Assembly: GCA_946478635.1 (NCBI GenBank)
Contig: CAMLCX010000047.1
Location: forward strand, 1-16,203
Direction: 5' to 3'
Length of the DNA: 16,203 nucleotides
Source: an uncultured Pseudomonadota bacterium
GTDB lineage: Bacteria > Desulfobacterota_B > Binatia > UBA9968
Shown here: piece after piece, positions 325-16,149 of the stretch
How positions within the stretch are numbered: the first letter of the stretch is position 1
Layout of the letters: each line of letters begins with the position of its first letter
Program-made: the position numbers and the translations under genes
The notes under the pieces: model-generated
What the model was told of the DNA's origin: nothing
Databases searched by the model: none
Seen by the model: the letters and a program-made list of their open reading frames with translations, nothing else

Positions 325-789
325 CTAGCGCCCCACTGCGCGACGCAAACGTCTATTCGCCTTACGAGTACGCGGCACCCCGACTCTGCGGCTTTGCTTG
401 CGCGGGCTAGGCGTCAATTGATAAACTTTTGTCTGCGTGTGCCGCGCCAACGCCGCCTTCTTCCAATCAGCCAGCCCGCGCCGGAGGTAATCGGGATTTA
501 ACCCGAGCGCCTCACAGACGCTGTCGAAAGAAAAAACACCGACGCCTCCCGGCCCTTCAACCCACTCGCGGGCCTCGTGAAAAAGCGTCTTGCCTTTGAT
601 GTCTCGTGCGAAGAAATACTTTTGGTAACAAGCGATGGCGTCCTCGAGAATCGCCAGCAGCAACTTTTTTTCCGGCTCGAGATGCAACTTGCGCCGAAAC
701 GTGTCGAGATACTGCTCCGGCAGCAGCGTGTCCGGTTGGAACAGCGAGGTTACCCGGTCTTCCATGCTAAGTCCTGTATCGTAGCTCAT
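325..789 (-). CDS. Conserved-looking hypothetical protein, last gene of the Fe-S operon
   Basis: This encodes 154 aa starting at ATG 789, with a strong Shine-Dalgarno (GGGAGGTGG, bases 794-802) 4 bases before the start. I do not recognise a named domain. The core (residues about 30-115) looks like a compact, mostly helical soluble domain, with LLLAILEDAIACYQKYFFARD, then a LFHEAREWV helix, then FSFDSVCEALGLNPDYLRRGL. The last part has the cadence of a small DNA-binding or recognition helix, but this is only an impression. The C-terminal 30 residues are very basic (SRRVGVPRTRKANRRLRR), which could bind nucleic acid. There is no signal peptide or membrane segment. It begins 36 bases after the Rrf2 regulator stop and is probably co-transcribed with it. 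That context suggests a link to regulation or Fe-S/redox physiology, but function is unknown. Confidence 0.8.
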   Translation of the reverse strand: MSYDTGLSMEDRVTSLFQPDTLLPEQYLDTFRRKLHLEPEKKLLLAILEDAIACYQKYFFARDIKGKTLFHEAREWVEGPGGVGVFSFDSVCEALGLNPDYLRRGLADWKKAALARHTQTKVYQLTPSPRKQSRRVGVPRTRKANRRLRRAVGR

Positions 790-825: not shown

Positions 826-1281
826 TCATGCCGCACTCGAAAGAGAAGAGGAACCCAGTAAATCCCGGCAGGCCGGTTGCCGCAGGGCGGCGATCGTCGT
901 CCGGCTGAGAACCTCGGTCACACTTCGTTGTACTTCACTCCACACACCGATCATCGTGCACCGCGGAATCTGATCGCACCCCAATGCATGATCCAAACAG
1001 GCGTTGACCGAAATCGGCCCTTCAATCGCCTCAATGACGTCGCAAAATGAAATCGCCTCGGCCGAACGCGCCAGCTTGTAGCCGCCCGCCGGACCTCGTT
1101 TCGATTGGATCAACCCACCGCGCACCAAATCCTGGATGATTTTCTCCAAGAATTTTTTGGGTACTCCTTGATGCTTGGCAATCTCCGTTATGGAGCTGCA
1201 TTTCCCCTGCTGTTGGTCTCCTAGATAAATGACCGCTCGTAACCCGTAATCGACACGCCGAGGAATCTGCATGAGTCCCAT
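826..1281 (-). CDS. Rrf2-family (IscR-like) transcriptional regulator
   Basis: This encodes 151 aa with an N-terminal winged helix-turn-helix (residues about 5-75) of the Rrf2 type. It shows RRVDYGLRAVIYL, the HTH (ITEIAKHQGVPKKFLEKIIQDL) and the wing motif KRGPAGGYKLA. Three cysteines, C95, C102 and C108 (C-X6-C-X5-C), sit where IscR, NsrR and RirA bind their Fe-S cluster. C28, C80 and C138 are extra. It is therefore probably an Fe-S or NO/redox-sensing regulator. The start at 1281 is favoured by AAGGGGG (1291-1297) at 9-base spacing; ATG 1272 is an alternative giving a more usual Rrf2 N-terminus (MQIPRRVDYG). It is 6 bases from the cysteine desulfurase stop, and the Shine-Dalgarno lies inside the end of that gene. 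A likely target is the palindrome at 5656-5684 ahead of iscS, making the regulator autoregulatory. IscR is the closest functional model, but other Rrf2 types (RirA, CymR) cannot be excluded. Confidence 0.93.
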   Translation of the reverse strand: MGLMQIPRRVDYGLRAVIYLGDQQQGKCSSITEIAKHQGVPKKFLEKIIQDLVRGGLIQSKRGPAGGYKLARSAEAISFCDVIEAIEGPISVNACLDHALGCDQIPRCTMIGVWSEVQRSVTEVLSRTTIAALRQPACRDLLGSSSLSSAA

Positions 1282-1287
1282 GTGGCC

Positions 1288-2508
1288 TTACCCCCTTGCT
1301 CCGGTGGTGCTTGCGCGAAGCTGCTCCGGCTGAGAGCGTTCCTGTCCAAGCTTGCCGAGGGCGGAAAGACCCTGCAGACGTTGGACGATCGAAGGCACCA
1401 TTTGGTTCACATAGCGGACTTCTTCTTCAGTATTGAACCGTCCCAAGCTGAAACGAACCGCACCCTGGAGCCAATCGGCCGGCACCTTCATGGCCCGCAG
1501 CACATGCGACGGCTCTGAAGAGCCCGCCGTACAAGCGGACCCGGTGGACGCACAGATGCCGACTTGGTCGAGCAGGACCAGGATCGATTCTCCTTCAAGA
1601 TAACGAAAGCTCATGTTTGACGTATTCGAAACTCGATTCTGGTCCTGACCATTCACCCGGCTGCCGGGGCAGGACTCCAGCAACAAGGTCTCAAGTAAGT
1701 CGCGCAATTTGCCGATCCGCGCCGAATCATCGGCCAATCTTTCGAGGGCAATTTCCGCCGCCTTGCCCATGCCGACGATGGCGGCGACATTTTCAGTCCC
1801 GGCGCGGCGATTGCGCTCCTGGTGGCCGCCGATGATGAACGGCGGAAAGGTAATGCCGCGGCGCACGTAAAGCGCGCCGACGCCCTTGGGCGCGTGAAAT
1901 TTGTGCGCCGAGATTGTCAGCAGATCGATCGGCAGATCTTTAACACGAACGGAAATCTTCCCGGCAGCCTGCACGGCGTCCACGTGAAAGGGGATTCCTC
2001 TGGACCGCACAATTGCGCCGATCTGTTCCACAGGAAAAATGACGCCGGTCTCGTTATTGGCCCACATGATGGACACCAACGCGGTGTCATTGGCCAATGA
2101 CGCGCGAAGCTCTTCCAGATTGAGCGCGCCATGCTCATCCACATTCAACCAAGTGATCCGATAGCCTTTTCTTTCCAGGTGTTGGCAGAGACCCAGCACA
2201 GCGGAGTGCTCGACCTGTGTCGTCACGATGTGGCGCTTATCCGGGCGCGCCTCGAGCATGCCGCGAATCGCCGCGTTATCACCTTCGGTGCCGCTGCCGG
2301 TGAAAATCACTTCCACCGGATCGGCCGCGCCGATCAGCGCGGCAACCTGCTCCCGCGCCTCGGATATTTTCTGGCCCACTTGGCTGCCGAAACGGTGAAT
2401 GCTCGATGGATTGCCGTAGGATTCCGTGAGGTAGGGCATCATCGCTTGAGCCACCTCGGGCAGCACCCGGGTCGTGGCGTTATTATCGAAGTAAACCGCG
2501 CGCACCAT
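1288..2508 (-). CDS. nifS: Cysteine desulfurase, NifS/IscS class (second copy)
   Basis: A 406-aa PLP-dependent class V aminotransferase-fold enzyme that converts cysteine to alanine and passes persulfide sulfur to Fe-S assembly proteins. Visible residues are the N-terminal YFDNNATTRV, the PLP-stacking His101 in VEHSAV, Asp177 in HVDAVQ, the Schiff-base Lys203 in SAHKFHAPKG, and the catalytic-loop Cys326 in STGSACTAGSSEPSHVL. The length and the extended Cys loop fit group I (NifS/IscS) desulfurases, not SufS. The C-terminal 25 residues are polar and low in conservation signal. It lies 40 bases downstream of sufB and 6 bases upstream of the Rrf2 gene. It differs throughout from the other desulfurase at 4391-5638, so it is an old paralogue and not a recent duplication. 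Whether it serves SufB specifically, or another thiolation pathway, cannot be told from sequence. Confidence 0.95.
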   Translation of the reverse strand: MVRAVYFDNNATTRVLPEVAQAMMPYLTESYGNPSSIHRFGSQVGQKISEAREQVAALIGAADPVEVIFTGSGTEGDNAAIRGMLEARPDKRHIVTTQVEHSAVLGLCQHLERKGYRITWLNVDEHGALNLEELRASLANDTALVSIMWANNETGVIFPVEQIGAIVRSRGIPFHVDAVQAAGKISVRVKDLPIDLLTISAHKFHAPKGVGALYVRRGITFPPFIIGGHQERNRRAGTENVAAIVGMGKAAEIALERLADDSARIGKLRDLLETLLLESCPGSRVNGQDQNRVSNTSNMSFRYLEGESILVLLDQVGICASTGSACTAGSSEPSHVLRAMKVPADWLQGAVRFSLGRFNTEEEVRYVNQMVPSIVQRLQGLSALGKLGQERSQPEQLRASTTGARG

Positions 2509-2548: not shown

Positions 2549-4009
2549 CTACCCGATGCTTCCTTCCAAACTTACACCCAAAAGCTTTTGCGCCTCGACG
2601 GCAAATTCCATCGGCAACTCCTTGAAAACCTGTTTGCAAAAACCGTTGACGATCAAATTGACCGCGTCTTCGGTAGAAAGGCCGCGCTGCTTGCAGTAAA
2701 AGAGCTGGTCCTCGCCGATTTTGGACGTCGACGCTTCGTGCTCGACCTGAGAAGCGTTGTTCAAAACTTCCAGATAAGGAAACGTATGCGCGCCGCACTT
2801 GTCTCCGAGCAATAAAGAATCGCACTGCGAATAGTTCCGTGCCCCGCTGGCGCCCTTCATGATCTTCACCAGTCCCCGATAAGTGTTTTGCCCGTGGCCG
2901 GCGGAGATCCCCTTGGACACGATCGTACTCTTGGTGTTTTTGCCGATATGAATCATTTTCGTGCCGGTATCGGCTTGCTGGTAGTTGTTGGTCAAAGCCA
3001 CCGAGTAAAACTCCCCGACCGAATCGTCGCCCTGCAGGATGCAACTCGGATATTTCCAGGTAATCGCCGAGCCCGTTTCAACCTGAGTCCAGGAAATCTT
3101 CGATCGCTGGCCGAGACATTTGCCGCGCTTGGTGACAAAATTATAGATGCCGCCCTTGCCTTCGGCATCGCCGGGATACCAGTTCTGCACCGTGGAATAC
3201 TTGATCTGCGCGTCTTTGTGGGCGACCAGCTCGACCACCGCCGCGTGGAGCTGGTTTTTGTCGCGCATCGGCGCCGTGCAGCCTTCGAGATAGCTCACGG
3301 TTGCGCCTTCGTCGGCGACGATCAAAGTGCGTTCAAACTGGCCGGTGTCCGCGGCATTGATGCGGAAATAGGTCGACAGTTCCATCGGGCAGCGCACACC
3401 CTTGGGGATGTAACAGAAAGAGCCGTCGGTAAACACCGCGGCATTGAGCGCGGCAAAAAAGTTGTCGGTGTAAGGCACAACCGAGCCCAGGTACTTCTGC
3501 ACAAGCTCCGGATGATTCTGTACCGCTTCGGAAAAAGAGCCGAAAATGATGCCGAGCTCGGCAAGCTTGCTTTTAAACGTCGTCGCTACCGAAACGCTAT
3601 CGAAAACCGCATCGACGGCCACTCCGGCTAAATGCTCCTGCTCTTTGAGAGGAATACCGAGCTTGGCATAGGTTTCAAGCAACTCTGGATCGACTTCCTC
3701 CAAGCTCTTCGGCCCGTCCGACTTGCTCTTCGGCGCGGAATAATAGCGAATCGCCTGATAGTCGATGGGCGGATAATGCACCATGGCCCATTTGGGTTCA
3801 GCCTCGGATTTTTCCAGCTTCGCCCAATGGCGGTAAGCCTTAAGTCGCCATTCGAGCATGAACTCCGGCTCGTTTTTTTTCGCCGAAATGAAGCGAATGA
3901 TCTCTTCATTGAGGCCGGGCGGAACAGTGTCCGCTTCGATATCGCTGATGAAGCCGTACTTGTATTCTCGGCGCGCGAGATCTTCGACTGTGTTGTTGGC
4001 TGGTTTCAT
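2549..4009 (-). CDS. sufB: Fe-S cluster assembly protein SufB
   Basis: A 486-aa protein, close to the usual 465-495 aa of SufB. SufB is the cytosolic scaffold subunit that forms the SufB-SufC-SufD complex and assembles nascent Fe-S clusters. Recognisable stretches include the N-terminal YKYGF and [32 protein letters not shown] (192-213), LEGCTAPM (241-248), the beta-helix region with [16 protein letters not shown] (341-356), and the C-terminal [21 protein letters not shown] (391-411). That last stretch carries the conserved Cys396, followed by the [15 protein letters not shown] segment (424-438). The start ATG 4009 gives the standard N-terminus. It is 21 bases after the A-type carrier gene. 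Notably no sufC or sufD is adjacent; a cysteine desulfurase follows instead. Since SufB needs the SufC ATPase, that gene is expected elsewhere in the genome. Confidence 0.97.
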
Positions 4010-4030: not shown

Positions 4031-4360
4031 TCAAACGGTAAAAGACGCGCCGCAGCCGCAAGACTTTTTGACGTTCGGGTTTTGAAACACGAATCCGGAC
4101 TGCATGAGTTCGTCCTTGTAATCGAGCTCGGTGCCGCTCAAGTAAAGCAAGCTCTTCATATCGATCAGAACTTTCGCGCCGTCCTTCTCGAACACCTTAT
4201 CGCTCGCTTTGGGCATGTCGAAATCGACTTTGTACTGCAGGCCCGAGCAACCGCCGCCGACAACTTTCACCCGCAAACCTTGCCCCTCGCGGCTATCCGC
4301 GGCAATCAGCTCCTTGATCCGCGCCGCGGCACGTTCGGTGAGACTGACTCCCATGGCCAT
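4031..4360 (-). CDS. erpA: A-type Fe-S carrier protein (IscA/ErpA/HesB family)
   Basis: A 109-aa HesB-like protein that receives Fe-S clusters from a scaffold and delivers them to target apo-proteins. The three family cysteines are present: C38 in VGGGCSGLQY, and C101 and C103 in the C-terminal SCGCGASFTV. The QSGFVFQNPN strand precedes the CGC pair, as in ErpA and IscA. ATG 4360 is preceded by GGAAGGA at 8 bases; ATG 4354 is two codons downstream. It lies 30 bases after iscS and 21 before sufB. The NPN...CGCG ending resembles ErpA, but IscA, SufA and ErpA cannot be separated confidently by eye, so the symbol is provisional. Confidence 0.93.
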   Translation of the reverse strand: MAMGVSLTERAAARIKELIAADSREGQGLRVKVVGGGCSGLQYKVDFDMPKASDKVFEKDGAKVLIDMKSLLYLSGTELDYKDELMQSGFVFQNPNVKKSCGCGASFTV

Positions 4361-4390: not shown

Positions 4391-5638
4391 TCAGGAAACC
4401 TTCTCCTGCGGTCTCGCCTCGTTGTGCTGACGTTTCTGTAACCTGCTCTTTTTCGCTTTATAAAGCGGTGAAATTTCCCTCAGTCGGGAAACCTCTTCGA
4501 CAACGCGCTGTGCAGCGTAATCGATCTCCTCAGCGGTATTGAATCGGCCGATGCCGAATCGAATGGAAGCATGCGCCATGGCGTCTTCAAGTCCGATCGC
4601 CTTTAACACATAGGACGGCTCGAGACTGGCGGACGTGCAGGCTGAACCCGTCGACACGGCAATTTCCTTGAGCCCCATCATGAGTGATTCACCCTCGATA
4701 AACGCAAAGCTCAGGTTGAGATTGCCCGGCAAACGCTTGAGCGCGTCGCCATTGACGTAAACGTCATCGAGCTGATCGAGCAGCGCGCGTTTGAGCCGCT
4801 CGCGCAGCGCCGTTAAACGCTCGCCCTCGGTGCCCATTTCCATTTGAGAAAGCTCGCAGGCCTTGCCCAATCCGACAATGCCGGAAACGTTGGGCGTTCC
4901 GGAGCGCATACCGCGCTCATGGCCGCCGCCATCGATAAGCGGCGTAATTTTAACCCGAGGCCGGCTCGAACGAACGTAAAGCGCGCCGACGCCCTTGGGA
5001 CCATACATTTTGTGCGCGGTCAGCGACAAAAGATCGATTCCCATGTCCACGACATTGACCGGAATTTTGCCAACCGCCTGGGTTGCGTCGGTATGAAAGA
5101 GAATTCCTTTCTCCTTTGCCAAACGACCGACCTCTTTGATCGGCTGAATTGTGCCGATTTCATTGTTGGCCACCATAATCGAAATCAAAATGGTTTTTTC
5201 GGAAAGCGCATCTTTTAACCGCTGCAGCTCAATAAAGCCGTCCGAAGTCACGGGTAGGTACGTCACACGAAACCCATGTCGCTCCAGAAACTTGCAGCTA
5301 TCGAGAACCGCTTTGTGTTCGGTCGAACAAGTGACGATATGGTCGCCCTGAGCACGATACGCTTCAGCTACTCCTTTGATGGCGAGATTGTCGGATTCGG
5401 TGGCACCGCTGGTAAAGACAATTTCCCGGGCCGACGCCGCGCCGATCAATCGGGCGACCTGTTCGCGCGCAGTGTCCACGGCGGCTTCGGCTTCCCATCC
5501 AAAGGAATGGCTCTTGCTCGCTGCGTTACCAAAACTTTTGGTAAAATAGGGCAGCATGGTATCCACCACCCGCGGATCCACCGGTGTCGTAGCGTGGTTA
5601 TCGAGGTAAATGGGCGTGTTGACAACCATAATGTGCAC
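4391..5638 (-). CDS. iscS: Cysteine desulfurase IscS
   Basis: A 415-aa PLP-dependent cysteine desulfurase and first gene of the Fe-S operon. Visible motifs are [16 protein letters not shown] at the N-terminus, His108 in CSTEHKAVL, the [10 protein letters not shown] segment (182-191), the PLP-binding Lys210 in [12 protein letters not shown], and catalytic Cys334 in the loop [19 protein letters not shown]. That loop is nearly identical to the IscS signature. This is the more IscS-like of the two desulfurases in the operon. The C-terminal 25 residues are basic and polar ([17 protein letters not shown]), different from the usual IscS end that contacts IscU. The frame opens at GTG 5638, with GGAAAG (5647-5652) 8 bases upstream; ATG 5629, which lacks a good Shine-Dalgarno, gives a more typical N-terminus ([11 protein letters not shown]). 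Transcription probably starts from the promoter at 5657-5686. Confidence 0.97.
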
Positions 5639-5655
5639 AGACGAATCTTTCCGAC

Positions 5656-5684
5656 GATATTACAGACTAATTAGGTCTGATATC
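5656..5684. promoter_or_regulatory. Palindromic operator, IscR type 1-like, probable Rrf2 binding site
   Basis: A 29-base imperfect palindrome: outer arms GATAT/ATATC, inner arms CAGAC/GTCTG, centre TAATTA, with one extra base between an inner arm and the centre and two between inner and outer arms on the other side. The 13-base core GACTAATTAGGTC (5665-5677) matches the E. coli IscR type 1 core GACTRWWWYAGTC, as I recall it, at 11 of 13 positions. It overlaps the -35 to -10 region of the iscS promoter, where a bound repressor would block RNA polymerase. The Rrf2 protein at 826-1281 is the natural candidate ligand. Confidence 0.6.
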
Positions 5685-5686
5685 AA
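5657..5686 (-). promoter_or_regulatory. Sigma70-like promoter of the Fe-S operon
   Basis: Read on the minus strand, TTGATA (5681-5686, 5/6 match to TTGACA) is followed by an 18-base spacer and TAATAT (5657-5662, 4/6 match to TATAAT). The predicted start of transcription is near 5650, only about 12 bases from the GTG and about 21 from the ATG of iscS. A second possible pairing, TTGGTT plus TAATTA with 16 bases between, lies about 10 bases further upstream and would give a longer leader. The palindromic operator fills the spacer of the first pairing. Confidence 0.55.
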
Positions 5687-5783
5687 GTTAACCAATACAG
5701 GACAGTGAGTCAACCCCGAAGAAACCAAACCAAGCTGTTGAAATATTTGGACTTTTCAATCCAGAGCAGCGTTAAATTCATCT

Positions 5784-8321
5784 TTACACTTGGGCGAGCA
5801 CTTGCCGGAGAAAATGCCCGGTTGCGGATGCAGCTATACTGGCGATCATTTCTGGCGATCCCTGGGCAATCAGCTCGCCGCCTCTTTCGCCCCCTCCAGG
5901 ACCCAGGTCAATGACGTAATCCGCGCTTTTGATGACGTCCAAGTTATGCTCCACGATGACAATCGTATTCCCCAGGTCAGTCAAACGGTGCAGCAGCTCC
6001 AGGAGCGTTTTCACATCTTCGAAATGCAGACCGGCCGTCGGCTCGTCAAGTACGTAAAGCGACCGACCCGTTGATCGCCGTGCCAGTTCGCGCGCGAGCT
6101 TGACGCGCTGGGCCTCGCCGCCCGCCAGAGTCGACGCAGGTTGGCCAAGCTGCAGATAACCCAGCCCGACCTCGCGCAAGGTGCGCAAGCGATCGTGGAT
6201 CGCGGGAATGTGAGCGAGCAACTCCAGCGCTTGATCAACGGTCAAATCCAAAATATCCGCGATGCTCATTCCCTTGTACTTGATGTCCAGAGTTTCGCGG
6301 TTATAGCGCCGTCCCTTGCATACCGCGCAAGTCACATAAACCTCCGGCAGAAAATACATGTCGATGCGCGTAACACCCTCGCCGCCACATGCTTCGCAGC
6401 GCCCGCCGCTCGCGTTGAAAGAAAACCGTTCGCTGCCGTAGCCGCGCACGCGCGCCTCCGGTAGCTGAGCGAAAAGCGCGCGCAAATGATCGTACAGACC
6501 CGTGTAGGTCGCGGGATTGGACCGCGGCGTGCGGCCGATCGGACTTTGGTCGACGCCGATTATCCGAGTAATATTTTCCCAACCGGCAATCTCCGCGCCG
6601 CCGCAAGCATGGTCTTTCCGGCGCTGCAATCGCGCCAACACGCCGGCGTAAAGCACTTCCATCACCAGAGTGCTTTTGCCCGATCCCGAAACGCCGGTGA
6701 CACAGGTCAGGACACCGATCGGAATATCCACGGTTAGATTTTTGAGATTACGCGCGTTGGCCTTTCGCACCCTTAGAAATTGACCTGAGTCGGCGCGCCG
6801 TTGTCGTGGCATCGAAACCTTCGCTTGGCCAGACAGATAGCGCCCGGTAAGCGATTGCGGGTTGCGGCCAATCTCCTCCGGCGTTCCGTGCGCAACGACT
6901 TCGCCGCCGTGGACACCCGCCGCCGGCCCCATGTCGACCAAATAATCCGCTTCCAGCATCGTTTCGCGGTCGTGCTCGACGACCAAAACCGTATTGCCCC
7001 CATCGCGCAGCTGCTTCAACAATTGGAGCAGTTTAGCGTTGTCCTTCTGGTGTAAACCGAGACTCGGCTCGTCGAGCACATAAAGAACTCCCGCCATGGC
7101 TGAGCCGATTTGTCTTGCCAGGCGCGCCCGTTGCAGCTCTCCTCCTGAAAGCGTCACTGTCGGCCGATCGAGGCTCAGATATTCGAGACCCAGCTCAGCC
7201 AACACGCGAAGGCGACGAACCAATTGCTCGACGATTTTTTGACCGACGATTTTTCGCTCCTCGCCGATCGTCAGCTTCGAAAAAAACGCCAGCGCTTCAC
7301 AAACCGGCCAGGAAGCAACCTCGACGATATCGCGCCCGGCGACGCGCACTGCGCGGCTTTCTTTCCTGAACCGTGAGCCGCCGCACTCGGGGCACGGCGC
7401 CGTGGCGCTATCATCGCGTCTTGTCCTATCGTGTCCGCCACGGGCGGGGGCGACCCTCCCCAGTCCGTTGCAACCCGGACAGGCGCCTTGCGGGCTATTG
7501 AACGAAAACAGGCTCGGCGTAATCTCCGGCATGGCCGTGCCGCAATGGACACAAACCAATCGCAAACTGAACAGGACTTCACGGTCGGACGGAGTTTCGT
7601 TGCTGCCGAATATTTGAATCCTGACAAGCTGCTCGCCATGGCGCGACGCGACTTCCAGCGAATCCGCCAGCCGTTTCTCGATCCCCTGACGCACAATCAA
7701 GCGATCGATTACGAGATCGAGCTGCCGCACCGCGCCGATATCGAAGTCCGCTTCATCCCCAAGCTCGCGCATCTCACCATTGATCATGACTCGGGCAAAA
7801 CCCTGGCGAGCAAATTCACCGAAGAGTTTTTTAATATCGGCCCCGGCAGATAGCGACACAGGCGCCAAGACGACAATGCGTGTTTGCGCCTCCAAGGCAA
7901 GCACCTGATCGACGATCTGCTCGATGGTATGCGCGGTGATCTCGTTTCCACAGGTCAGGCAAAACGGCTGCCCGACTCGGGCGAAGAGCACGCGCAAATA
8001 ATCGTGAATATCGGTAAGCGTGCCGACCGTCGAGCGAGGACTCGCCAAGCCTGGTTTTTGTTGGACGGCGATGGTCGGAGAAAGGCCGTCGATGCTGTCG
8101 ACGTCAGGCTGTTCGAGCCGTTGGAGGAGCTGGCGGGCATCCGCGCCAAGCGACTCGAGATAACGGCGCTGGCCTTCGGCATAAATCGTATCGTAGGCTA
8201 ACGAAGATTTTCCCGAACCCGATACCCCGGTAATGACCACGAAACGGCCGCGCGGGATTTCCAGCTCGATGTTTTTAAGGTTATGAACCCGGGCGCCCTT
8301 GATGACGATATTGCCGTCCAT
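5784..8321 (-). CDS. uvrA: UvrA, excinuclease ABC subunit A (short form lacking the insertion domain)
   Basis: An 845-aa ABC-type DNA damage sensor of nucleotide excision repair that loads UvrB at lesions. First ATPase half: Walker A GVSGSGKSS (32-40), UvrB-binding region (about 115-255), cysteine pairs C257/C260, C281/C284 and C310/C313, signature LSGGELQR (391-398), Walker B VLYVLDEPS (412-420). Second half: Walker A GVSGSGKST (543-551), zinc module C642/C645 and C665/C668, signature LAGGEAQR (732-739; Ala replaces the usual Ser), Walker B SLYVLDEPT (754-762). Ordinary UvrA is about 940 aa. Here only 25 residues separate C284 from C310, so the insertion domain (about residues 287-398 in the Geobacillus protein) is absent. 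The UvrB-binding domain is kept, unlike UvrA2-type paralogues. The start lies 8 bases after the phosphomannomutase stop, so co-transcription is likely. Whether it is the genome's only UvrA cannot be seen. Confidence 0.95.
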   Translation of the reverse strand: MDGNIVIKGARVHNLKNIELEIPRGRFVVITGVSGSGKSSLAYDTIYAEGQRRYLESLGADARQLLQRLEQPDVDSIDGLSPTIAVQQKPGLASPRSTVGTLTDIHDYLRVLFARVGQPFCLTCGNEITAHTIEQIVDQVLALEAQTRIVVLAPVSLSAGADIKKLFGEFARQGFARVMINGEMRELGDEADFDIGAVRQLDLVIDRLIVRQGIEKRLADSLEVASRHGEQLVRIQIFGSNETPSDREVLFSLRLVCVHCGTAMPEITPSLFSFNSPQGACPGCNGLGRVAPARGGHDRTRRDDSATAPCPECGGSRFRKESRAVRVAGRDIVEVASWPVCEALAFFSKLTIGEERKIVGQKIVEQLVRRLRVLAELGLEYLSLDRPTVTLSGGELQRARLARQIGSAMAGVLYVLDEPSLGLHQKDNAKLLQLLKQLRDGGNTVLVVEHDRETMLEADYLVDMGPAAGVHGGEVVAHGTPEEIGRNPQSLTGRYLSGQAKVSMPRQRRADSGQFLRVRKANARNLKNLTVDIPIGVLTCVTGVSGSGKSTLVMEVLYAGVLARLQRRKDHACGGAEIAGWENITRIIGVDQSPIGRTPRSNPATYTGLYDHLRALFAQLPEARVRGYGSERFSFNASGGRCEACGGEGVTRIDMYFLPEVYVTCAVCKGRRYNRETLDIKYKGMSIADILDLTVDQALELLAHIPAIHDRLRTLREVGLGYLQLGQPASTLAGGEAQRVKLARELARRSTGRSLYVLDEPTAGLHFEDVKTLLELLHRLTDLGNTIVIVEHNLDVIKSADYVIDLGPGGGERGGELIAQGSPEMIASIAASATGHFLRQVLAQV

Positions 8322-15100: not shown

Positions 15101-15722
15101 CGCGAATCGAATCCAAACGGTCGCCGTCGAACTCCAAGCGCAAGGGCCGGCCGTAACCGGGCGAGAAAAGATCGACAATGCCGCCGCGCAAACTAAAATC
15201 GCCGCGCTCTTCGACCAGGGGCACGTTCTGAAACCCCCACTGAACCAAGTGTTCCAGCAGCAAGTCGCGCGCCAAGTCCTGTCCCGCGACCAAATACAAG
15301 TAGGATCGACTGAGCGATTCCTTGGGGATCACTCGCTGCATCAGCGCGGCGGGCGTCGCAACCACAATCGGCGCGGATTCTTCGACAAACTTGTAAAGCG
15401 CTTCCAAGCGGCCGGCGATGTTCTCGGGATGCGGCGACAGGTTTTCAAACGGCAGCACTTCCCAGGAGGGAAACAGATGCAAGCGGCTGCCAAACGGCGC
15501 CGTCTCCGCCTCGGCGCCAAGAAAAAAACTCAGATCATCGAAAAGATTTTCGGCTTCGCGCGCTCCCGGCGCGACAATCAGAATCGGCCGCTGCAGCCGC
15601 TCGGTAATTAAGGAAATCACAAAGGCGCGCGCGCCGCCTTGCACGCCTTGAATGCGTTTAGGGCCGCGCCATTTTCCTTGTAGAAAATTTGCGAGGCGAT
15701 CCGCCAGGACGATGGTGCTCAT
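12174..15722 (-). CDS. mfd: Transcription-repair coupling factor Mfd
   Basis: A 1182-aa ATP-dependent translocase that removes RNA polymerase stalled at DNA lesions and recruits UvrA, normal length for Mfd. Domains in order: UvrB-homology module (about 20-350) with FPSWEVLPFE and the RGDFSLRGGIVDLF segment; linker D3; the CarD-like RNAP-interaction domain (about 495-560) with GDYV-type DDYVVHLDHGIGVYRGL; and the RecG-like superfamily 2 helicase core with Walker A GDVGYGKTEVA (657-667), DEEH box (758-761), SLTATPIPRT (782-791) and QLRGRVGRS (927-935). Last comes the C-terminal TRCF domain D7 (about 1025-1130), which in E. coli masks the UvrA-binding site. ATG 15722 is chosen because its N-terminus is family-like and it forms an ATGA overlap with the DUF309 stop; the frame extends 35 codons upstream into that gene without Mfd-like sequence. 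Translational coupling is likely because no good Shine-Dalgarno precedes the start. Confidence 0.98.
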   Translation of the reverse strand: MSTIVLADRLANFLQGKWRGPKRIQGVQGGARAFVISLITERLQRPILIVAPGAREAENLFDDLSFFLGAEAETAPFGSRLHLFPSWEVLPFENLSPHPENIAGRLEALYKFVEESAPIVVATPAALMQRVIPKESLSRSYLYLVAGQDLARDLLLEHLVQWGFQNVPLVEERGDFSLRGGIVDLFSPGYGRPLRLEFDGDRLDSIREFNPSTQRTERVQEEMLLLPMKDFSLRGTALDEALRRLDQRAIELEVDRREKNHLLESLRAGIPYPGMEFLVPYFSPGLVPIFSYLPDQTLIWLDGADRVEAEAERFGRVAWERHQHAREEHRLVAPVEDLYLNEHQWRAALEPFSVVQGESLTVMAASGQAQASTLDVESYLTADLRQETALHGKDASLAPLVERLRAWHAERVVFVAPTRGDAARLGELLGHYDLHVPLIDGPVRELLMRADFHRAIVCGQLNQSFRLPEARLVLVTFDEIFGTRKRQPASAGKNYPSHFLTSLSELKQDDYVVHLDHGIGVYRGLKFMKVADVEGEFLHLEYSGGDRMYLPVDRINMVQKYIGGDGAAPVLDRLGGTAWEKVKAKARKSILAMAEELVQLYALREARAGTAFAAPDNMYKEFEAAFEFEETPDQQRAIDDTLAGMQGKRPMDRLVCGDVGYGKTEVAMRAAFLAVEGGKQVAVLAPTTILSQQHLHTFRHRFRHHPVRIEMVSRFLTAREVSQILEETAKGKVDIVIGTHRLLQKDVEFKDLGLVIIDEEHRFGVVHKERLKKMRQLVDVLSLTATPIPRTLHMSLVGIRDLSIIETPPVDRLAIQTYVTRYDERLIRDAILRELERGGQVFFLHNRVETIERLALKLADLVPEAKMAVAHGQMRPRELEKVMVEFFENKTQVLVCSAIIESGLDFPNANTIIINRADQFGLAQLYQLRGRVGRSHRHAYAYLLIPGEKAITPDAEKRLRALQEIDGLGGGFKLALHDLEIRGAGNLLGAQQSGQITAVGFELYTEMMENAVKELKGEAVLPEVEPEIRLGIAAYFPDNYIPDANQRLYFYKRLASLRNAAELEELKEEIKDRFGAYSDVVENLFLVMNLRRILKEYLVQQISFSDGKVFLLFHPESPVQVEKLLELIHKQKNRFRLAPDGRLSFAPKDLEWSALMDEVEGLLRTVGETVAVQHFSPLELHP

Positions 15723-16087
15723 GAGAAAAAACCAAAGCGTTGCATGTTGATTTTCGGAATGCTCGCCGCGCTCGGCTTGGCGTCGGCCTTTTCCGCGGCC
15801 TTGGCCCAAGCTTCGGCCGCCTGGCAAAGATCTTTCACTCTGATTTGCAGAAATGCCGGCTGGTAGTTTTCTAGGCGGATGAGCGCCTGATAGATCAGCC
15901 GCACCGAGCCTTTGACCTCGCCGAAATCACAGAACAGCCGAAAGGCGGCGGCAAGTCCGATCAAGCCTTCGAGAATGGCCTTGTTCTCCGGCTCCGTCTC
16001 TCGATAGAAATCTTCCCAAACTTCATGGCACTGGAAGAACTTGCTTTGGTTGAATAGTTCAATGCCCTCGCGCAGCCGTGCATCCAT
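15719..16087 (-). CDS. DUF309 family protein
   Basis: A small helical protein of 122 aa from ATG 16087. It matches the DUF309 pattern: REGIELFNQSKFFQCHEVWEDFYR with the HEVWE motif, then a helix EGLIGLAAAFRLF and a second helical repeat GSVRLIYQALIRLENY. Family function is unknown; the conserved His and Glu suggest a metal or ligand site, but this is inference. The frame opens five codons earlier at TTG 16102, which has GGAGAAG 9 bases upstream, so that start is a serious alternative. The C-terminal tail (KADAKPSAASIPKINMQRFGFFS) lies outside the domain. The stop TGA overlaps the mfd ATG, making the two genes translationally coupled. Confidence 0.88.
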   Translation of the reverse strand: MDARLREGIELFNQSKFFQCHEVWEDFYRETEPENKAILEGLIGLAAAFRLFCDFGEVKGSVRLIYQALIRLENYQPAFLQIRVKDLCQAAEAWAKAAEKADAKPSAASIPKINMQRFGFFS

Positions 16088-16149
16088 GACGTTTACGCTC
16101 AACGCTAACAGCTTCTCCGGAGGGCCTCAAGATTGGCGGAACGGAGCGA

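Follow-up and report, generated by a model that had tools for sequence, protein, structure and literature searches.

An inverted repeat, CAGAC-N7-GTCTG, precedes iscS in a 16,203-nucleotide stretch of DNA from an uncultured Binatia bacterium (the whole of this stretch is called the window below), and comparison with related genomes strongly supports its role as operator of an Rrf2 repressor of the Fe-S type that acts on the operon encoding it. The sequence of the site, its conservation and register among relatives, its co-occurrence with rrf2 and the presence of the same box at a second operon of those relatives are direct observations. In the circuit that we infer from them, down to the identity of the binding protein, its cluster type, the signal and the direction of regulation, a cluster-loaded dimer of the operon's own Rrf2 (predicted to hold a [4Fe-4S] cluster through three cysteines and Asp8) would bind the repeat just downstream of the -10 element, across the probable start site, and block RNA polymerase. 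When the supply of clusters falls or the cluster is damaged, Rrf2 would release the DNA and iscS-iscA-sufB-nifS-rrf2 would be switched on; through the same box in a suf operon, one Rrf2 protein or both would co-regulate two operons among which SufB and SufCD are split. We consider it very probable that an Fe-S repressor of the Rrf2 family has its operator here and keeps its own operon under negative feedback, with the second operon probably co-regulated.

The box before iscS and the operon behind it

The box lies within the 145-nt intergenic gap between uvrA and iscS (5639-5783), upstream of iscS and downstream of uvrA. The site and the genes that follow it are:

5663..5679, minus strand: core of the operator, CAGACCTAATTAGTCTG, with arms CAGAC and GTCTG that flank 7 bases; kept in register by all 21 main-clade genomes examined
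4391..5638, minus strand: iscS, cysteine desulfurase of the IscS subfamily (NF010611, 621 bits, cut-off 548)
4031..4360, minus strand: iscA-type carrier (TIGR00049)
2549..4009, minus strand: sufB (NF008773, 911 bits, cut-off 717)
1288..2508, minus strand: second cysteine desulfurase, NifS type (TIGR03402, 574 bits, cut-off 531)
826..1281, minus strand: rrf2, probable repressor with Cys-x6-Cys-x5-Cys, Asp8 and Arg12, counted from the second Met (TIGR00738)
325..789, minus strand: conserved gene of 154 amino acids directly after rrf2 (relatives in L001, L002 and L081)

The genes of this operon (iscS-iscA-sufB-nifS-rrf2-orf) are separated by gaps of 15-40 nt when Rrf2 is counted from its second Met, and their order agrees with the earlier note, which had placed a three-cysteine Rrf2 fifth in the same operon. 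The last gene, for which NCBIfam and Pfam gave no match, may have a part in Fe-S homeostasis. Elsewhere in the window, 15719-16102 (minus strand) encodes a DUF309 protein upstream of an mfd-like gene (mfd recognised by eye).

On the minus strand the full order before iscS is TTGACT-N17-TAACTT-GATATC-AGACCTAATTAGTCT-GTAATATC, and positions 5686-5657 read TTGATA-TC-AGACCTAATTAGTCT-G-TAATAT. The arms CAGAC and GTCTG are perfect around their 7-base centre (5663-5679); the 15-mer AGACYNNNNNRGTCT has a single exact match within the window, at 5664-5678, and when the 300-nt upstream region was shuffled 300 times with dinucleotides preserved, no shuffle gave a box of 15 out of 15. The description of the site as a 29-base palindrome is generous: CAGAC-N7-GTCTG is in register, but the ATAT arms outside it are shifted by two bases, and among spans that begin at 5650-5665 and end at 5676-5691 there is no ungapped palindrome of at least 21 nt with at least 80% symmetry. 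The likeness to the IscR type 1 core, which we take to be GACTRWWWYAGTC, came out on rescoring with the same count as before, 11 of 13 positions of the 13-mer GACCTAATTAGTC being identical; over the window and 21 relatives (22 sequences) this match ranges from 8 to 13 of 13, and it is complete in 6 of the 22.

Relatives were sought by an IscS scan of genome contigs, followed by an Rrf2 search in ten of the genomes found. One close relative, G005 (IscS 79% identical over residues 122-412, Rrf2 83%), belongs to the order whose 35 genomes formed the comparison set. The region upstream of iscS could be cut out in 29 of the 35, comprising 21 from the main clade (L091, L121-L140) and 8 from a sister group (L141-L148); it was missing or broken in G005, G309, G317, G323, G329 and G336, which were left out. 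Conservation before orthologous iscS genes, the check that the earlier note had proposed, was found throughout the main clade: a box with 13-15 of 15 positions stands before iscS in all 21 examined genomes as well as in the window, and a pattern search also found it in G323 and G329. The site is missing from 8 of 8 sister genomes, where the best score, 12 of 15, was reached by 88-97 of 100 shuffles.

In the 22 sequences the box keeps a nearly constant distance from the start of an upstream TTGAC (35 nt in 17, 34 or 36 nt in three and 32 nt in one), while L139 has TTGAT in place of TTGAC, also at 35 nt. Columns downstream of the box hold 0.0-0.2 bits, which indicates that the background is saturated. 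How much a single box weighs depends on its score: boxes of 15/15 were equalled by 0 or 1 of 300 shuffles, those of 14/15 by 4-14, and the four of the 22 that score 13/15 by 49-89; only 16 of the 22 have an intact GAC together with an intact GTC.

Orthologues of the operon's rrf2 (58-83% identity) occur in 22 of the 35 genomes and in none of the eight sister genomes, seven of which have lesser Rrf2 paralogues only and one of which (G312) is without any match. Such an orthologue accompanies the box in 19 of 21 genomes, against 0 of 8 genomes without it. Among these 19, rrf2 and iscS share a contig in 17 and lie on different contigs of a broken assembly in two (G326 and G334). As for the two exceptions, the contig of G327 ends inside sufB, and G331 has kept the isc box and lost the operon rrf2, its last gene following directly after nifS (L195:6013-7850). 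In G306 both box and rrf2 are present in an operon without sufB, which is found beside sufD on another contig. The correlation between rrf2 and box, resting as it does on few evolutionary events, is suggestive rather than conclusive.

A second operon with the same box

The 35 genomes also hold 31 Rrf2 paralogues with 35-44% identity. The annotation of one locus (L182) reads rrf2 paralogue-sufC-sufD-sufS-sufU-sufT; the other loci were compared by similarity only. SufB is missing from this gene set and is encoded in the window's isc operon: in the main clade the sufB orthologue belongs to the isc operon and in the sister clade it lies directly behind the suf-type rrf2, with extra copies in G321, G335 and G005. 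The window's own genome presumably has this second operon as well.

The 220 nt upstream of 30 of the 31 paralogue genes (29 genomes) were checked for the box, which is present with 14 or 15 of 15 positions in 24 of the 30. Here it takes up the whole spacer from a TTGAC-type box, exact in 21 of the 24, to TATATT or a near match; the remaining six genes have a weaker in-register box in three cases and none there in the other three. Since the isc and suf operons share the box, they are probably co-regulated.

A shared box leaves room for the suf-operon paralogue to be the protein that reads it, controlling both operons in the manner of RisR and leaving the isc-operon Rrf2 otherwise employed or a fine-tuner. 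This would suit G331, in which the isc box and a suf-type paralogue are kept and the operon rrf2 is lost, and the sister genomes whose suf-type operon is boxed in the absence of an isc box (e.g., L183 and L192); RisR itself, in the available part of its description, has its gene at the suf operon and acts on both isc and suf (PMC9973013). Across the order, however, the isc box accompanies the operon rrf2 (19 of 21 genomes with the box, 0 of 8 without), and in our reading of the alignment the suf-type proteins are without an equivalent of wing Arg59, which the window's protein keeps. We regard control by the paralogue as rather unlikely, and prefer the operon's own Rrf2 as the reader of the isc box.

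A serious possibility, which we put forward tentatively, is that two Asp8-type [4Fe-4S] Rrf2 proteins, one per operon, share the GAC-N7-GTC box and cross-regulate, the two operons having been interdependent since sufB left suf for isc. The box would then be an old common Rrf2 Fe-S operator that has outlasted the divergence of the proteins (IscR at type 1 sites, RisR and both proteins here). Nature has run two experiments of its own here, one in G331, where the box has survived the loss of rrf2, and one in the sister clade, which has neither; the first is a natural test of cross-regulation. The closed feedback loop of the earlier note is borne out insofar as conservation and the co-occurrence of rrf2 support an operator for an Fe-S-type Rrf2 on its own operon, but as a closed loop it is drawn too narrowly: a suf operon with its own Rrf2 shares the box, and in G331 the isc box has outlived the operon rrf2.

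Genome-wide, the strict 17-mer CAGACYNNNNNRGTCTG showed no excess in the 35 genomes (21 places versus 18 places for the reversed control); by coordinates, 9 of the 21 are at isc promoters (that of G329 at a contig end beside uvrA). Two patterns that combine the box with parts of the promoter had 27 and 22 matches in the 35 genomes and 0 with reversed controls. By coordinates, 20 genomes have a match of the first at the suf promoter, and isc promoters account for 12 matches of the second (that of G329 again at the contig end beside uvrA), its ten others including one at a rhodanese-MoeB gene and four inside nifS-type genes. As far as strict patterns tell, the regulon looks small.

Extra box places were inspected at seven sites. 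Two boxes within atpG-like coding frames and one within a fusA-like frame (recognised by eye) were rejected. In G326, a TTGACT box and the operator stand just before a rhodanese-MoeB fusion gene (L219:5219-5310), which is a possible further target in sulfur transfer. In G001, a perfectly symmetric box, ATTATAGACCTATTAGGTCTATAAT (L180:1335-1359), lies beyond the suf genes with a ferredoxin-like gene nearby and reads as an operator beside a -10-like TATAAT in both directions. Two relatives of the window's gene at 325..789 were also noted: one of 43% identity in G330 (L217:4926-5375), which follows its own copy of the box, and one of 51% in G333 (L179:2047-2373), upstream of the suf-type rrf2.

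Outside the order and within the same phylum, a box of 13-14 of 15 stands behind TTGACA before iscS in four of nine loci (L092, L093, L095 and L096 among L092-L100); L102 and L104 have no such box before iscS. Loci of other groups (L003, L005-L008 and L024) score 11-13 and have an Rrf2 gene immediately in front of iscS. In G273 and G230 (L244, L245) there is a third type of Rrf2, which carries a Cys-rich insert; upstream of it stands a box (14 and 13 of 15, respectively) of the form TGACTGA(A/G)T(T/C)AGTC(T/C), some 60 nt before the matched start, and a related box precedes iscS in both genomes too (L093, L096).

Placement of the box relative to the promoter

Two pairs of hexamers are candidates for the promoter before iscS:

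5708..5713, minus strand: -35 box TTGACT, conserved; TTGAC exact in 21 of 22 sequences
5685..5690, minus strand: -10 region TAACTT (or TTAACT one base upstream, preceded by TG); consensus of 22 sequences TTGG.TAATTT
5657..5686, minus strand: TTGATA-18-TAATAT, the promoter of the earlier note; consensus match, mean 7.0/12 over 22 sequences, less conserved

The hexamers TTGATA and TAATAT, between which the palindrome had been placed, are indeed present, and they form the sole consensus promoter match in 5400-6000 (9/12; shuffles average 0.6 matches). In the scoring of the 22 sequences both pairs were allowed the same sliding, and 51 other offsets served as background. The upstream pair, TTGACT-17-TAACTT (5713-5685), is better kept, with a mean of 8.8/12 versus 7.0/12 and with 15 versus 3 of the 22 sequences scoring at least 9/12; the 51 unrelated offsets have a mean of 5.7/12 and a maximum of 6.2/12. 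This difference argues that the box most likely lies downstream of the -10 element and across the start site, outside the spacer of the main promoter, with a transcript probably starting near 5678. The downstream pair nevertheless exceeds the background in relatives (7.0 versus at most 6.2 of 12), so that it is less conserved rather than not conserved. It may be a weaker second promoter that overlaps the first, or perhaps the A+T-rich arms of the box alone lift its score.

That the palindrome fills the spacer of a working TTGATA-18-TAATAT promoter, as the earlier note had it, we hold to be improbable: it draws on the only consensus match in the stretch, on a score above background in relatives and on the suf operon, which in relatives is built with the box in its -35/-10 spacer, but it is set against an upstream pair that is better kept, with a TTGAC exact in 21 of 22 sequences, and the A+T-rich arms could raise its score. 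The spacer-filling layout as such is real at the suf operon of relatives. Least probable by far is a repeat that acts as RNA or a chance palindrome, since, although a start near 5678 would put the repeat at the 5' end of the transcript, where a short stem is conceivable, the arms are of 5 bp, the box is kept in 21 genomes, the suf-operon box sits in the -35/-10 spacer and hence is untranscribed there, and the window has no Rfam match, for which the RNA-element reading was dropped.

The Rrf2 protein and its relation to known systems

The window's Rrf2 exceeds the superfamily cut-offs (TIGR00738, 122.6 bits against 73.3; PF02082, 129 against 30) and falls below those of all six subfamily models matched. 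Against the equivalog models it scores 75.2 of 207.55 bits for IscR (TIGR02010), 71.3 of 182 for NsrR (NF008240) and 85 of 193 for RirA (NF008886), so that the regulator is not an IscR equivalog. Instead of the IscR ligand set Cys-x5-Cys-x5-Cys-x2-His (reference EcIscR, L216) it reads Cys-x6-Cys-x5-Cys-x2-Ile. Asp8 and Arg12, counted from the second Met, are present in 20 of 20 isc-type sequences (window included) and in 30 of 30 of the suf type; at these two positions E. coli IscR has Arg and Thr. In a tree of 65 Rrf2 proteins the suf type forms one group (100/99), the isc type comes together in only 24% of the 200 bootstrap replicates, and the branch leading to E. coli IscR is very long; the sole claim that we draw from this tree is that the suf-type Rrf2 appears as a distinct type.

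According to the available parts of two reports, the cluster of NsrR of Streptomyces coelicolor (ScNsrR) takes its fourth ligand, Asp8, from the partner subunit, and this Asp8 is paired with Arg12 (PMC5411485), and Asp8 put into RirA stabilised the [4Fe-4S] cluster and abolished iron sensing (PMC10510648). By analogy with both, a [4Fe-4S] cluster is predicted for the window's Rrf2, whose signal would be damage, oxygen or NO and not simply a shortage of iron.

Among the matches listed in the literature on IscR/Rrf2 regulation, RisR and Binatota, which were mostly titles and the openings of abstracts, there was no account of this circuit in this lineage. It is a conserved operator in a feedback loop of a known kind, and its wiring is new. 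With it, the known range of Rrf2 repressors in Fe-S feedback control would grow by an uncultured lineage, and there would be a case in which to study how a split machinery, with SufB in one operon and SufCD in another, is kept in balance; it also suggests that an operator can keep its shape while the regulators reading it are replaced.

The third cysteine of ScNsrR is Cys105. With Asp8 and Arg12 this protein resembles the window's Rrf2, from which it differs in cysteine spacing (Cys93 and Cys99 in ScNsrR), target genes and operator, as far as the accessible text of the report goes (PMC5411485). Like E. coli IscR, the window's Rrf2 is encoded in the operon predicted as its target, and the 13-bp core GACY-N5-RGTC is common to both in the portions of the sources at hand (PMC9973013, PMC12594620), with 11 of 13 type 1 positions matched in the window. 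Since the core belongs to IscR type 1 sites as well, an IscR cannot be recognised from a box of this shape. The iscR gene comes first in E. coli, whereas rrf2 is fifth here, and E. coli IscR, in the same partial sources, holds a [2Fe-2S] cluster with C-x5-C-x5-C-x2-H, whereas the protein here has C-x6-C-x5-C and no His at that place.

The closest known circuit, by box shape and by both placements, is that of RisR of Myxococcus xanthus, an Rrf2 protein of group IS6 whose holo form represses isc and suf (PMC9973013; the comparison extends to the available part of that report). Here there are two Rrf2 types, one per operon, whereas M. xanthus has one, and sufB lies within the isc operon; the outer arm bases are AGAC rather than T(t/g)GAC, and the cysteines of the isc type are spaced x6/x5 rather than x9/x5, as in RisR (C92, C102 and C108). 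An rrf2 gene heads the sufBCDSUT operon in M. xanthus and the sufCDSUT operon here (L182). The footprints of RisR contain GAC-N7-GTC, over the -10 element and start at isc and over the -35 and -10 elements at suf (PMC9973013); in relatives of the window, likewise, a GAC-N7-GTC box is found at both the isc and the suf operons, over the -10/start region at isc, given the promoter that we favour, and across -35 and -10 at suf.
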